Assembly: GCF_000016905.1 (NCBI RefSeq)
Contig: NC_009616.1
Coordinates: 620,001-684,000 of the forward strand
Direction of reading: 5' to 3'
Length of the DNA stretch: 64,000 nt
From: Thermosipho melanesiensis BI429
GTDB taxonomy: Bacteria > Thermotogota > Thermotogae > Thermotogales > Fervidobacteriaceae
The notes beneath the pieces were generated by a model. That model was not told where the DNA came from, did no database searches, and worked only from the letters and a program-made list of their open reading frames with translations. Below, piece by piece: positions 2,347 to 8,102 of this stretch. The translations under genes and the position numbers were made by a program. Positions within the stretch are counted from its first letter, which is position 1. Every line of letters starts with the position of its first letter.

Positions 2347-2820
2347 ATGACAGTAAACGAATTATTAGGCGTTGCATTAAAAATCGAAGGAGCGGGTTAT
2401 TCATATTATACAAAACTTGCTAACATTTCTACTGGAAAACTTAAAGAGCTCTTCGTCGAGCTTGCAAATGAAGAAAGGGAACATGCAAAAATTTTTGAGG
2501 AAATACTCAAATCTTTCGAAGAAAACCAAACCTTATCTTTAAACGAAGAAGAGATCGGTTATTTAAAAGCCTTTGCGGATGACATTATATTCCCAAAACT
2601 AAGCATTAAAGTACCTCAAAGTGTAAAAGAGGCTTTAAAATTGGCAATAGAAGTGGAAAAAGATTCTATAATATTCTACACAGATATAAAAGCACTTATA
2701 CCAAATAAAGAAGCATTTGAAAAGATCATAGAAGAAGAAAAAAAACACATGAAAAAACTAACATTAAAATTGAACGAAAGCGATACATTTGATATGTTTA
2801 GCGAAGGAAGCAAAATTTAA
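2347..2820 (+). CDS. Ferritin-like (rubrerythrin-type) di-iron protein without rubredoxin domain
   Basis: This 157-residue protein is a four-helix ferritin-like domain. It carries two iron-ligand helix pairs: E near residue 15 with EEREHAKIF near residue 43, then EVEKDSIIFY near residue 101 with EEEKKHMKKL near residue 132. These match the E...ExxH, E...ExxH pattern of rubrerythrin and ferritin relatives. There is no CxxC rubredoxin module, unlike the full rubrerythrin at 52555-53064. The family commonly handles peroxide or iron in anaerobes; the exact reaction here is inferred. The ATG start has a strong GGGAGGTG site. A 21-base palindrome lies upstream and may control it. The stop shares its bases with the stop of the convergent phosphatase-like gene. 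Confidence 0.8.
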   Translation: MTVNELLGVALKIEGAGYSYYTKLANISTGKLKELFVELANEEREHAKIFEEILKSFEENQTLSLNEEEIGYLKAFADDIIFPKLSIKVPQSVKEALKLAIEVEKDSIIFYTDIKALIPNKEAFEKIIEEEKKHMKKLTLKLNESDTFDMFSEGSKI

Positions 2821-3954
2821 ATAATTACAAGCGGCACGAATAACTCTTCATAACTCAGTGAACCATGCATTCCTTCCAATTTTTGTTCTCCACCAGTATA
2901 CATGTAAGTAAAAGAGTAATTTTCTTTGCATAAAAGCACATAATCTCCTATTCTATGCTTCGTCTCATGATGCATCTTTCCTTTTCCAAAATATCCTTCT
3001 TCAAGAGCCTCTATAGAAGGAATTATCTCAAACCTTCCTCCATAATTTTCCTCCATATAATCTAAAAAATCTTTCTTTTTGTTTTTTTGAACGTAAAAAT
3101 ACATCATCCTCATTTCTCCAGTGGGAGGTATTCTCAAAAATTTCATAAGTTCATTTCCCAAAAAAACGTTTTTCTCTCTAGGAGTAGTTACCATTCCGTG
3201 GTCTGCTAGCAAAAATACTCTAGTTTTTTTGTCAACATTTAACTTTTTAAACCAATCTAGTAGATATCTTGCTTCATATTCATATGAATCACTATCCGGA
3301 CCTTTTTTGTGCCCTATTCCATCTAAAATTCCGTAATACACAAACAAAATACCTTTAAAATCCTTTTTTAAAAGTTTTTCTAAATTAGAAAACATATCAA
3401 GCATAGAATAATAACCAAAAACATTTGCATCTTTTTGGGTAAAATAAGAAAGACCCGAATTTGTAATATTCTGCGCAGTTAATATACCTGCAAATACTCC
3501 TTCTTTTTTCAAAAGTTGAAAAACATTCGGAAGATGCTTTAAAGACTTTTTTACAATTGTCGAAAAACTATTTTCTCCCATTCCCGGAAAAACTAAAATC
3601 TATCATGTTAACCAACGTTCCAATCTCTCTTAGAAATTGTATATACCCCAAAACCCCATGCTCTTGTGGGGTAAGACCCGTCATAATACTAGTAATAGCT
3701 GCAGCCGTTGTAGTAGGAAATATACTACTTAACTTTGTATAATCTTCAAAACCTACTTTAAGCTCTTCAAACTTTTTGTATCCCAAACTATCCAAAATAA
3801 ATACAACTATTTTTTCTTTACTATCAAGGTATGGTAAAAGAAACTCTTTCATTTCTATAAATTCATGGTTGGGTGACACACCAAAATGTTTCAACAATAC
3901 ATTAACAAACGAAACTATGCTTTTTTCATATTCTGGTTTTAATAAATTTCCCAT
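2817..3954 (-). pseudogene. Alkaline-phosphatase-superfamily phosphodiesterase, split into two frames
   Basis: The first part (3954 to 3568) has the metal-binding VFILDSLGY segment and the nucleophile region SIFPTTTAAAITSIMTG, followed by LTPQEHGVLGY. The second part (3581 to 2817) holds the remaining metal ligands: GILDGIGHKKGPDSD, LLADHGMVTTP and GMHGSLSYEE. These are the ordered motifs of one type I phosphodiesterase/nucleotide pyrophosphatase domain, so the two reading frames belong to one ancestral gene. The frames overlap by 14 bases (3568-3581); the second frame is +1 to the first and begins with an ATG, so translational coupling of two half-proteins is possible. No homopolymer marks the break. 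It may be a true frameshift, a sequence error, or a split enzyme. The ATG at 3954 lies just after the malG terminator hairpin. Confidence 0.7.
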
Positions 3955-4014: not shown

Positions 4015-6396
4015 CTATCCTTTTACTGAACCCTTTGTAAGTCCACCAACCAAGTATTTTTGCATCGAAAGGAATAAAATTACCATTGGAAGCATACCTA
4101 CAAGCGCTGCAGCAGAGAAAAGGCCCCACTCAGTTTCAAACGGACCCGTGGAAAACGTCCAAAGTCCTACTGCATATGTATATTTTTCCACATCCTGGAG
4201 TATTATCTTTGCAAGTACAAATTCATTAAATGTACCCATAAAGGTTAAGATAACCACAACTGCTAATATAGGTGATGCAAGCGGAAGAACAATTCTCCAA
4301 AACGTTTGCCACCTTGTTGCTCCATCGATCATAGCTGCTTCCTCAAGAGAACTTGGAATTGTATCGTAAAAACCCTTTATCAAATACATGTTAAAAGCAA
4401 TATTACCCAAGTAAACAAAAATTAAACCTCCCAATGTATTTAATCCAAGCCAAGGTATATACCTTCCCATGAAACTTAAAAAACCATAAAGTGCAATCAT
4501 ATACATAATCGCAGGAAACATCTGTATTAGTAATAAAGACATAATACCATATTTTCTTCCCCTAAACCTCATTCTACTAAATGGATATGCCGCAAGTGCA
4601 TTTACAAACGTTGTGATTACAGATACAAGGCCAGCAACTACTACACTGTTGAGTATCCATCTCCAAAGATAATGCCTTTGTTTTTGTTTCCAAATTTGAT
4701 CAAACCTAAACAATCTTTTATCTATTTCCTTAAAGTTCTTATCCAAATCATCAAACGGAAAAATATCCATCAAGTCAGCAGCCGCCTTTGAAGCTATACT
4801 CATGCTTGAAGCAATTTCTGCTGGATATTTTGACTGAACCTCTGTAAAGAGCTGTGATAACACCAAAATTCTAATTTTTACACCATTTTTTGCAGAATAA
4901 ATTGCATTTTTTCCTGTTAATTCTATACTTTCAACATATTTATCGAATTTTTCCAAAAATTCTTTTACATCTTTGCTATATTTTTCATATCTTTTAATTA
5001 AATCTCTATAATCATCTATCCACTCTAATTTTCTAAGATCTTTTCTCATACCACTTTTAACTTCTTCATTGGAAATATAGGTTAAAAAGCTATTTACACT
5101 CCTTCTTAAAGATTTAAGTGATATGTATAACCTATTTATATCCCTTGGAAGTTTATATTTTGAAACCTTTTCTATAAATTTATCAACATCTTTAAAGAAA
5201 TCTTCCGTTAAAATATATGCCTTTGCATCTAAAAGCTTTTGCTCCTTTAAATTAAGTTCATTTCTTTTAACTTCCAATTCTTTCTTTTCACTTTCTAATC
5301 TATTGGAAATTAGAAGTAAGCTGTTTGATGATTTCAGATATTTTTTCTCTACCTCCTGAAAATTCCTTAAAACATTTTCCGCCTCATTAAGTTGCTTAAA
5401 CGATTTTAAATTAAATTGATTAATTATCGAAATAAAATCACCATAACTTGCAAGGTTCTTTTTGTCATATTTTTCCCAAAGTTTTTTTACTTTAGACGCA
5501 TTAGTCATCAACTCATCAACTAAACTCTTTATTTCTTTATTTATCTGCAACTCAGAAATTTTCTCAATTATTTCATATATCTTCAAATATTGTTCAAATT
5601 CACCATTTTCCATAACAAGTGCATTTATTCCCACAGATGGTTTTTCCAAAATTTCATATGCCGCTTTTAACGTTTTGTTAAAACTTTTAACTTGAGGTAT
5701 AATTGAATTTTTGATTATTGTACTTAACCTTCTGTACTCAATCTGATATATATCCATATCCTTTTTTATACTCCTCAAACTTGTTTCTAACTCTTTTATC
5801 AACTTTTCCTTTATTTTTATTTCCATCTTTACATTTTGAAATTCTCTTTCCCACTCTTCCCTGTATTTTGAAACATCTATTCCCTCAAATTCCTTTTCTT
5901 TCCCAAGGGAAAGTATAGCAAACGAAAGGTCTTTTTCTGATGTTTTCTTTACTTTTACTTTTTCCTTTATACCTTTTGAAACATTCAAAATTGTTTCTAT
6001 AATCTCATTTGATTTTTCTTTAACATAAGATTGTATCATACTAAAATGTTCATCTGTAAGTTTTATTAAACTTTTAGATTCTTCTGAATAATTCTTCAAT
6101 TCCTGAATATCTCTTCTAAATTTTTCAACAAGGTATTCTACTGGTTTCTCATCATAAGGTCGAGAATTAGTAGTAATAGCCTCAATATCACTTAAAAGTC
6201 TTAAGACATTATCTTCTGGAAATAAAAGATCTTTATAATTTTGCAAACTCATTCTTGAAGAAAAAAGTTTCGAAGAAAATGCCGCGTTATCTCTTCTTAA
6301 AGAAGTTGATACAACCCAAACAACGGGAAATAATATGGCTACTATTAAAATTACCAAAATCAAATGTGTTAACCAATTGCTTTTTTTCACAACCAT
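4015..6396 (-). CDS. malG: Maltose-type ABC transporter permease MalG with a ~500-residue insertion
   Basis: MalG is one of the two membrane permeases of the maltose/maltodextrin importer. The N-terminal transmembrane helix (residues ~10-30) and the C-terminal permease core (from ~575) are typical. The core holds NSVVVAGLVSVITTF, the PFSRMRF loop and the EAA loop (EEAAMIDGATRWQTFWRIVLP) that docks on the ATPase. Between them lies a ~500-residue, Lys/Glu/Leu-rich region predicted to be largely coiled coil. It should sit outside the membrane, since it follows helix 1. The usual family length is about 280 residues; here it is 793. Oversized MalG proteins are known in Thermotogales, so this is probably a lineage trait, not a fusion artefact. 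malG starts one base inside the malF stop (TAATG). No malK ATPase is nearby. Confidence 0.92.
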   Translation of the reverse strand: MVVKKSNWLTHLILVILIVAILFPVVWVVSTSLRRDNAAFSSKLFSSRMSLQNYKDLLFPEDNVLRLLSDIEAITTNSRPYDEKPVEYLVEKFRRDIQELKNYSEESKSLIKLTDEHFSMIQSYVKEKSNEIIETILNVSKGIKEKVKVKKTSEKDLSFAILSLGKEKEFEGIDVSKYREEWEREFQNVKMEIKIKEKLIKELETSLRSIKKDMDIYQIEYRRLSTIIKNSIIPQVKSFNKTLKAAYEILEKPSVGINALVMENGEFEQYLKIYEIIEKISELQINKEIKSLVDELMTNASKVKKLWEKYDKKNLASYGDFISIINQFNLKSFKQLNEAENVLRNFQEVEKKYLKSSNSLLLISNRLESEKKELEVKRNELNLKEQKLLDAKAYILTEDFFKDVDKFIEKVSKYKLPRDINRLYISLKSLRRSVNSFLTYISNEEVKSGMRKDLRKLEWIDDYRDLIKRYEKYSKDVKEFLEKFDKYVESIELTGKNAIYSAKNGVKIRILVLSQLFTEVQSKYPAEIASSMSIASKAAADLMDIFPFDDLDKNFKEIDKRLFRFDQIWKQKQRHYLWRWILNSVVVAGLVSVITTFVNALAAYPFSRMRFRGRKYGIMSLLLIQMFPAIMYMIALYGFLSFMGRYIPWLGLNTLGGLIFVYLGNIAFNMYLIKGFYDTIPSSLEEAAMIDGATRWQTFWRIVLPLASPILAVVVILTFMGTFNEFVLAKIILQDVEKYTYAVGLWTFSTGPFETEWGLFSAAALVGMLPMVILFLSMQKYLVGGLTKGSVKG

Positions 6397-8102
6397 TATC
6401 TATTCACCTCTTCAAATGAACCTGAAATCTTGAAATTTACAAAACTAATTCCAGCAACTATAAAGAATATTAAAATGGATATAGCACTAGCAAATCCAAA
6501 ATCTTGTCCTCTTCCCGCTTCAAACGCCAACTTATACGTATACGAAATCAAAATATCAGTTGCACCTGCTGGTGTACTTGTATTTGGAATGGCAGGACCA
6601 CCAGAAGTTAAAAGATAAATATTAACAAAGTTGTTAAAATTAAACGCAAAACTACCTACAAGTAATGGAGCAACTGTCGTCATCAAAAGTGGGAATGTAA
6701 TCTTCCAAAATCTTTTTGACCTTGATGCTCCATCTATAGATGCAGCCTCATAAAGTTCATCTGGAATACTTTGTAAAGCACCTAAACTTACTGTCATCAT
6801 ATATGGAAACCCAAGCCAGGTATTAACAATTAAAACTGCAACCTTTGCCCAAAAAGGATTTGTCATCCACTTAATGGATTCTCTATTTAATAAACTATTT
6901 ACAACAAACCTATTTAACACACCATATGTTTCGTTAAAAAAACCGTTTTTCCATATGAGAACAGAAATAAAAGCAGGGATTGCCCAAGGAACAATAAGTA
7001 ATGTCCTATACAACGCTCTTCCCTTTAAAGTATTGTTGTTTAATACAAGAGCAAACGCAAGTCCAATTGCAAATGTAAATAGCACACTAAGTGCAGCATA
7101 AGTAAAATTCCAAAGAAATATTTTTGTAAATGGACCTGAAATAGTGGGATCGGTAAATATCTTCGTAAAGTTTTTTCCACCTACGTATGATATATAACCT
7201 AAAATTGGGACTTTTTCACCTTTTTCGTCAAAATCGTAAAAAGTACCATCCTCTTCCAAAAGTGGTTTGTTCGTTAAATCATTAACTAAAGTTGTTTTAA
7301 CAACCGTTTTTCCGTTTTCAATAACCTCAGAAAGCGCCATTCTGTAAAGATGTTTAATTTGAACCAATTTTAAAGTACCATCATTACTAAACCTTAAAGA
7401 TAACCTTTCTTTTCTACTATTAACAATTTCAACTTTACTTAGAATCGGGAAAGCAATTTTTGATTTAAAAAATACTTCGTTGATAGCTGTTTCTTTATCA
7501 AAAGGCGAATAAAAATAGTTATAAGTTTTATTTTCATCAACAATAGCTATTATCTTTCCGTTTTCTTCCATTACATCGAATTTTTCAAGTGGAATCAATT
7601 CAGCCTCACCCAAAATTATATTTCCCGCCTGCATCCTTATAGGCTTTATATTTCCAACAACATATTTTTCTTCACCTTCACCATAAACTAACACTTTAAA
7701 ATCATCAGTTGGCTCTATTCCTTCATATCTTACAAAAATTTCATACACGTAATTTTTGCTTTTATCGGGTACATAAGTATACACAGGATCTGTTAAAAGC
7801 CTATCGATAACTTCTTGACGTGTCATTATGTGACCAGTTCCGTAATTTGTAAAGGCAGTCTTAATGGTAAAAGCAATGGGATATAATACCAAAATAAAAA
7901 GTAGAACAACAGCAGGTATCATATACCTGTAAGGATATGCCCCTTTGTTAAAAATAAAATAGTCAATTAAAAATACTAAAACAAAAAATGTGATGGCTAA
8001 TTCATAAAATCCTCTAGAAAATAAAAATAATGCTCCCCATATAGAAAAAGCATTAAATAAAGCTAAAAAAACATAACCTACAAACTTCCAAAACTTTATC
8101 AT
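6396..8102 (-). CDS. malF: Maltose-type ABC transporter permease MalF
   Basis: The 568-residue protein has several N-terminal transmembrane helices, a large extracytoplasmic insert (residues ~90-310, comparable to the P2 loop of E. coli MalF) and a C-terminal permease core. The core carries the EAA loop (ELYEAASIDGASRSKRFWK near residue 455). The insert reads GEGEEKYVVGNIKPIRMQ and YNYFYSPFDKETAINEVFF, which fits the P2 domain that contacts the binding protein. The ATG at 8102 follows GGGAGGAG. It lies downstream of malE after a terminator-like hairpin, which would give more malE than malF transcript, and it overlaps malG by one base. Confidence 0.93.
   Translation of the reverse strand: MIKFWKFVGYVFLALFNAFSIWGALFLFSRGFYELAITFFVLVFLIDYFIFNKGAYPYRYMIPAVVLLFILVLYPIAFTIKTAFTNYGTGHIMTRQEVIDRLLTDPVYTYVPDKSKNYVYEIFVRYEGIEPTDDFKVLVYGEGEEKYVVGNIKPIRMQAGNIILGEAELIPLEKFDVMEENGKIIAIVDENKTYNYFYSPFDKETAINEVFFKSKIAFPILSKVEIVNSRKERLSLRFSNDGTLKLVQIKHLYRMALSEVIENGKTVVKTTLVNDLTNKPLLEEDGTFYDFDEKGEKVPILGYISYVGGKNFTKIFTDPTISGPFTKIFLWNFTYAALSVLFTFAIGLAFALVLNNNTLKGRALYRTLLIVPWAIPAFISVLIWKNGFFNETYGVLNRFVVNSLLNRESIKWMTNPFWAKVAVLIVNTWLGFPYMMTVSLGALQSIPDELYEAASIDGASRSKRFWKITFPLLMTTVAPLLVGSFAFNFNNFVNIYLLTSGGPAIPNTSTPAGATDILISYTYKLAFEAGRGQDFGFASAISILIFFIVAGISFVNFKISGSFEEVNR

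Follow-up and report, generated by a model that had tools for sequence, protein, structure and literature searches.

Conserved base and variable arm of a predicted folded, all-helical domain in the first periplasmic loop of Thermosipho MalG

Overview

The MalG permease of Thermosipho melanesiensis BI429 carries a 509-residue insert between its first two membrane helices, which is well supported by structure modelling as a folded, rigid, all-helical periplasmic module. The gene lies in the stretch of 64,000 nucleotides analysed here (positions 620,001 to 684,000 of contig NC_009616.1, hereafter the window). The insert itself is already known. As far as the consulted text of Noll et al. 2008 (PMC2246101) goes, about 500 hydrophilic residues were located by TMpred between TM1 and TM2 of the Thermotogales MalG1 and MalG2 but not of MalG3, in a species set that includes T. 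melanesiensis, and the region was described as lacking similarity to known proteins, of unknown function and a 'relatively recent' acquisition. What we add to that paper is a structure prediction, a division into base and arm, a spread through the phylum, a single origin among the sampled MalGs and a parallel in an OppC-type permease. A later account of the insert was not found in the literature, searched largely in open-access papers, and the portion seen of a 2025 paper on maltodextrin transport (PMC12096829) does not mention it. Now that the predicted fold is confident and its base can be told from its arm by conservation, a region described since 2008 as having no known function becomes cleanly testable.

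The malG locus and its first periplasmic loop

The malE, malF and malG genes are present as an operon on the minus strand spanning 9333-4015, where malF ends and malG starts, with ATG, within a shared TAATG (see Table 1 for all features). We assign the product to the CUT1 maltose permeases by its core domain, closest match, EAA loop and operon. The Pfam match is BPD_transp_1 at residues 612-783 (61.7 bits vs 26.4), and the top NCBIfam model is MalG PRK10998 at 257.0 bits, 4 bits below its naming cut-off of 261, which is a score threshold and no biological feature. The closest PDB sequence is E. coli MalG (2r6g_G, E 3.4e-63); with this protein (2r6g, 3puv) the permease core (48% identity in the Foldseek alignment), the operon partners and the placement of TM1 are held in common. 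The EAA loop is seen as EEAAMIDGATRWQTF at residues 685-699, and E685, E686, A688, D691 and G692 are unchanged across 48 alignment rows. MalK docking is the role named for this motif in a figure legend of Noll et al. 2008 (PMC2246101).

Table 1. Features of the malEFG region, in window coordinates
Feature	Residues	Position	Strand	Basis or remark
malG, giant first periplasmic loop	793 aa	4015..6396	-	intact single ORF
TM1	8-33	6298..6375	-	AlphaFold2 helix; aligned with E. coli MalG 13-60
Insert, predicted all-helical periplasmic domain	60-568	4693..6219	-	alignment, composition, hydropathy, AlphaFold2
Base, first half	60-145 (26 + 60 residues)	5962..6219	-	near-fixed length; N63, P65, L67, P80, Y103 conserved
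Arm, length-variable	146-458	5023..5961	-	alignment of relatives
Predicted long helix	175-251 (77 residues)	5644..5874	-	AlphaFold2
Predicted long helix	316-386 (71 residues)	5239..5451	-	AlphaFold2
Base, second half	459-568	4693..5022	-	near-fixed length; conserved residues
Permease core, TM2-TM6	577-793	4018..4668	-	E. coli MalG alignment, AlphaFold2, Foldseek, superposition
EAA loop region EEAAMIDGATRWQTFWRIVLP	685-705	4282..4344	-	MalK docking site, hence cytoplasmic; from sequence
malF, partner permease	568 aa	6396..8102	-	ORF, Pfam, NCBIfam
Large P2 loop of MalF, periplasmic	243 residues between anchors	7131..7859	-	anchor measurement
malE, binding protein	390 aa	8161..9333	-	ORF, Pfam

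E. coli MalG aligns only with residues 7-55 and 579-793, and 523 residues here stand in place of 22 in its P1 loop (its residues 61-82). The insert, whose bounds we set at residues 60-568, comes to 509 residues between TM1 and TM2 against 284 for the remainder of the protein. An earlier sequence-only reading had described an insertion of about 500 residues after the first membrane helix, larger than the permease itself and rich in Lys, Glu and Leu, and it was right on each of these points: the composition is K 14.3, E 11.8, L 10.6 and I 9.6%, with G 1.8%, P 1.6% and zero Cys. A search for a membrane-like span within residues 35-575 (Kyte-Doolittle, 19-residue mean) returned none, the maximum being 0.99 vs 3.14 for TM1; this hydrophilic character is shared with the large MalG of Noll et al. 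2008. The TM2-TM3 loop, SRMRFRGRKYG, is Arg/Lys-rich and on the cytoplasmic side, and counting back from it and from the cytoplasmic EAA loop places the TM1-TM2 loop outside. A location of the insert outside the membrane, as proposed earlier, is thus well supported by homology, by topology and by the AlphaFold2 model, whose core superposes on E. coli MalG, and a cytoplasmic location is ruled out by the topology. Values of dN/dS are 0.10-0.22 for the insert vs 0.014-0.025 for the core (4 pairs, with dS >1 and saturated in two or three), from which the insert is judged to be maintained as protein under purifying selection. A pseudo-ORF or frame artefact is ruled out by these values together with 57 long relatives.

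Predicted fold

AlphaFold2 modelling of the whole MalG, for which 48 relatives were used, gave a mean pLDDT of 83.8 and a pTM of 0.64. Ten-residue blocks within the insert were mostly at pLDDT 82-95 with a few at 70-77, and from residue 577 onward the membrane core scored lower, at about 56-89 with a drop to 40 at the C-terminal end. Modelled alone, the insert reached a pLDDT of 93.8 and a pTM of 0.70, and this model contains no strand of at least 3 residues. With the insert in place, the membrane part of the model superposes on E. coli MalG at a Z of 22.4 and an rmsd of 3.1, the alignment taking in 285 of 288 residues. Disorder is ruled out by the pLDDT values. It may be noted that the sequence-only reading had named cytoplasmic placement or disorder as the outcomes that would speak against it; the topology found is extracytoplasmic and the predicted fold is confident.

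The arm is well supported in the models as consisting largely of two antiparallel helices, each of more than 70 residues. The generic coiled-coil structural matches fit an antiparallel pairing of helices 175-251 and 316-386; the label 'coiled coil' rests on these long AlphaFold2 helices and on the generic matches to antiparallel coiled coils. A hydrophobic period of 3.55-3.6 residues was also found, with a value of 0.665 for the insert vs a highest value of 0.609 among 200 shuffles. Helix by helix, the periodicity is notable for 3 of the 7 segments (the real value was reached by 2 of 200 shuffles for 86-145 and by 0 of 200 for both 175-251 and 459-503). In the remaining segments it is not notable (39 of 200 shuffles for 316-386, 186 for 389-412, 33 for 420-455 and 72 for 511-569). 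The periodicity therefore supports amphipathic helices for the insert overall and in those three segments.

Kinship to a solved fold was looked for with Pfam, PDB sequence, Foldseek and VIA-align searches, and among the families listed these gave only generic coiled-coil matches. Pfam and PDB sequence searches with the insert gave weak and scattered matches of coiled-coil type, and Foldseek gave nothing at E <= 1e-3 (best 1.4e-3). For VIA-align, where the guide value for helical models is about 13, the top Z was 12.0 with an rmsd of 41, and the tightest match, the dynein stalk 3wuq, had a Z of 9.9 with an rmsd of 2.8 over 143 residues. Further generic matches were to coiled coils of Smc, V-ATPase and wall hydrolases (8auc, 6ewy, 4cgk).

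Base and arm

Alignment of the relatives gives good support for a conserved base of fixed length that would bear an arm which is weakly conserved and differs in length. Among the 28 rows listed, the segments of the first base half are 25-26 and 60-65 residues long and those of the second are 44-45 (459-503) and 64-70, as opposed to an arm of 152-449 residues, an about threefold spread (313 here, 152 in L042, 301 in L021 and 449 in L043). Conserved residues of the second half are W459, G505, L513, R537, L542, I558, D559 and Q567, and W569 and K572, just after the insert, also reach 75% identity in the 48-row alignment. No column of that alignment between residues 104 and 458 has an identity of 75% or more. 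Both base halves connect directly to membrane helices, and from the conservation it is reasonable to infer that the base may be the working interface. The shortest insert, of 352 residues, belongs to a MalG of 638 aa (L042, also L198:761-2674, plus strand) that retains the base and has an arm of about 152 residues.

Distribution and origin

At a threshold of 1e-3, 101 of 103 Thermotogota genomes match the profile of the insert, G040 and G053 being without a match. At E <= 1e-15 the count is 98 of 103; the weak matches in G047, G054 and G102 resemble generic coiled-coil matches. These are counts of profile matches and not necessarily of whole MalGs, as some are contig-end fragments and G089 has internal stops. 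The statement of the sequence-only reading that oversized MalG occurs in Thermotogales agrees with this count, as it does with Noll et al. 2008. All of 61 relatives have some related permease, though at the level of the wider CUT1 family. MalGs without an insert (285-303 aa) also exist in Thermotogota (G048, G049, G054 and G059), and in G048, G049 and G059 they are accompanied by an insert-bearing copy.

In a tree of 88 MalG cores, the 59 insert-bearing rows are separated from all others by a branch with 100/98 support, which points to a single origin of the insert within the sampled MalGs. The insert-less L118 adjoins the insert clade (support 96/77), and L042 leaves at an open fork at its base. 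The short insert and basal position of L042 suggest growth of the insert, later loss being equally possible. As the insert is present across Thermotogota, it must be old in this phylum, contrary to the 'relatively recent' acquisition in the text seen of Noll et al. 2008.

A wide scan covered those 80 MalG loci that, among the matches listed, come closest to the insert-less type. In 77 of these the P1 stretch is 28-42 residues long (Thermotogota L111 and L116 included), and the only insert carriers among the 80 are L144 and L164, both of Thermotogota. The P1 stretch of 74 residues in the MalG of a Chloroflexi MAG (L186:3501-4544) is apparently an independent, smaller expansion. In the phylum of L114 (Bipolaricaulota) none of 100 genomes matched the insert profile at 1e-10, and in Bacillota, where at most three candidates were scored per genome, 1 of 398 genomes did (E 4.2e-11, a frame of 568 aa). 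Among 30 genomes of named loci, 4 match at 1e-3, with one strong case, the MAG G108 (4.6e-45), which also carries L118, the sister to the insert clade. Pseudomonadota are represented in the insert comparison by the E. coli structure alone.

MalF and MalE

In E. coli, the P2 loop of MalF binds MalE. Like the MalG insert, it is a large periplasmic loop, in a different subunit and at a different loop position. It has about 180 residues according to the text seen of Noll et al. 2008 (PMC2246101). We measured P2 in 34 insert-bearing loci, which stand for 32 distinct operons as L202 duplicates L028 and L206 duplicates L008, and obtained 243-269 residues. L198 is truncated by a contig end, and L021, L024, L030, L114, L156 and L157 yielded no value. 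The wide scan gave P2 lengths for 75 insert-less loci, and 66 of these lie at 180-200 residues, the other 9 having 80, 141, 150, 152, 160, 208, 214, 251 and 573 (faulty alignment being probable for the 573). L144 and L164 have long MalG inserts, yet their P2 is only 209 and 212 residues. This is suggestive of the MalG insert and an enlarged P2 going together, not strictly, and with one lineage set against the rest it amounts to a single contrast.

The N-terminus of MalE is hydrophobic and signal-like and has no Cys there, so that MalE looks soluble and not a lipoprotein. Also in Thermotogota, the operons L194-L197 combine an insert-less MalG, a MalF whose P2 is full and a MalE that has no lipobox. 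The insert is therefore demanded neither by the envelope nor by a soluble MalE.

Possible function

Daus et al. in 2007 reportedly found E. coli MalE in contact with both MalF P2 and MalG P1, and the insert occupies this P1 loop. Our leading explanation, held tentatively and with somewhat less than even confidence, is that the helical P1 module guides or retains MalE. The base would pack onto the outer face of the permease next to the MalE docking site, perhaps resting against the enlarged MalF P2, and the arm would stand upright beside the docked MalE. Together they could guide, retain or cage MalE, and so deliver loaded MalE efficiently in a wide periplasm. Such retention is plausible because the insert lies in P1, the conserved base would be at the docking site and the arm would project. 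The confident fold, the longer MalF P2 of insert-bearing loci, purifying selection on the insert and its retention across the phylum also count in its favour. Speaking against a role with MalE are the variable arm, which does not favour a precise fit, and E. coli, which manages without an insert. As to the sequence-only suggestion that the insert could hold the binding protein, its position is suggestive and this is the leading guess, with the insert not required, since insert-less MalG occurs with soluble-type MalE in Thermotogota. Any function of the arm in particular is a guess.

The sequence-only reading had also suggested that the insert could span the periplasm under the toga. The model does not support this: at 0.15 nm per residue, its longest single helices measure about 11.5 nm (77 residues) and 10.7 nm (71 residues) vs a distance of about 50 nm between toga and cytoplasmic membrane in the text seen of PMC3387000 and PMC5082667. 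The same shortfall weighs on a stand-off or anchor, whereby the arm would bind peptidoglycan or a toga-associated protein and fix the transporter at a distance from the wall or at wall sites, and which we consider unlikely. The long helices are rod-like, and a variable arm length would match envelopes of differing spacing. Also, the seen parts of PMC5082667 and PMC3387000 describe a coiled-coil rod, Omp-alpha (OmpA1), employed by Thermotoga maritima as a spacer in the same periplasm; it is a 50 nm rod with an SLH domain. In our case no SLH domain was matched in MalG at E <= 1, and Pfam found neither this nor another wall-binding domain in MalG or in 48 inserts, among 25 of 27 families listed. 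Conservation sits in the base and not at the tip, and the wall-hydrolase coiled coils among the structural matches represent a common arrangement.

A conserved base would also suit a clamp that stabilises MalF-MalG (e.g. at high temperature) via MalF P2, the arm being a by-product. The enlarged P2 accompanies the insert in most measured operons, and most insert carriers belong to Thermotogota, a phylum known for heat-loving species. The MalG insert, however, is phylum-wide, and other importers in the same cells lack one; an arm of 300-450 residues would be costly; and other thermophiles in the 80-locus scan have none (e.g. L145 of Geobacillus and L117 of Caldilineales). We give the clamp, too, only a small chance. 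Drift, in which P1 tolerates insertions and a domain gained once grew and persists with little function of the arm, would account for an arm variable in length and sequence, for the unrelated domains that other permeases of this genome carry in this loop, and for an OppC orthologue without its own insertion. The dN/dS of 0.10-0.22, the high-confidence fold with its conserved base and the retention of the insert in 98 of 103 genomes make it improbable, more so than the anchor or the clamp. Guidance or retention of MalE is the reading we prefer.

Other permeases with enlarged first loops

A scan of the same genome for PF00528 gave 36 matches, of which 30 loci were examined. First-loop gaps of at least 110 residues were found in six permeases, namely MalG, an OppC-type permease (584 residues), L075 (277), L083 (166), L094 (189) and L095 (194); the MalG and OppC-type loops were clipped in the 30-locus scan and their values are taken from longer stretches. 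In a single control, a Geobacillus genome with 34 PF00528 matches, 1 of 30 loci had such a gap (L225, 435 aa, gap 178), and in a second Thermotogota genome (G029) 4 of 30 loci had an enlarged gap, its two MalGs being outside those 30. Also L061-L063, from other genomes, have enlarged first loops (187 residues in the 431-aa type). Beside the OppC-type permease, first loops enlarged to 277, 166, about 190 and 194 residues are located in the permeases at L102:1995-3623 (+), L103:2176-3345 (+), L104:1752-3029 (-) and L105:1979-3256 (+). By eye, two of these enlarged loops look strand-rich and the rest helical.

The OppC-type oligopeptide permease (G000:C1:594067-596589, L101:4068-6590, minus strand) has 841 aa, and its first periplasmic loop of 584 residues is K/E/L/I-rich. 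It was matched in 28 of 41 genomes at 1e-40. Its open frames measure 826-875 aa across 15 genomes belonging to its own family, 954 in G039 and 977 in G023, and only 328-369 aa in 11 genomes of family f2, where the core identity is 67-70%. Such pairs, one member bearing the insertion and the other lacking it, offer a comparison that needs no construction. On comparing five such operons, OppD was 77-88% identical and OppC was in the same order, and, as far as the compared stretches reach, only L283 and L282 showed a binding protein. In L283 the OppC-type loop has a span (375-393) just above the hydropathy threshold, which makes a wholly soluble loop uncertain there. The OppB partner (L101:6604-8040, minus strand, 479 aa) has additional N-terminal membrane spans compared with ordinary OppB. 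The MalG insert was compared by hhalign with the corresponding loops in the OppC-type, 426-aa and 431-aa permeases, each as a single sequence, and a relationship was rejected at probabilities of 0.5, 2.6 and 0.3%.

It is possible, although doubtful, that Thermotogota repeatedly built large, sequence-unrelated P1 domains into the second permease of unrelated importers, as a lineage-specific class of accessory module by which the binding protein would be docked, retained or shielded under the toga; the examples behind this reading are MalG, the OppC-type permease and the smaller domains in other sugar and peptide permeases of this genome. If P1 is such a site of repeated giant insertion, toga bacteria would have in it a general solution to the delivery of binding proteins to importers.

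Downstream of malG, a phosphodiesterase- or phosphatase-like gene (window 2817-3954, minus strand) is present as two overlapping ORFs of 254 and 128 aa. In the nine relatives checked (L002-L010) it is a single ORF of 380-434 aa.
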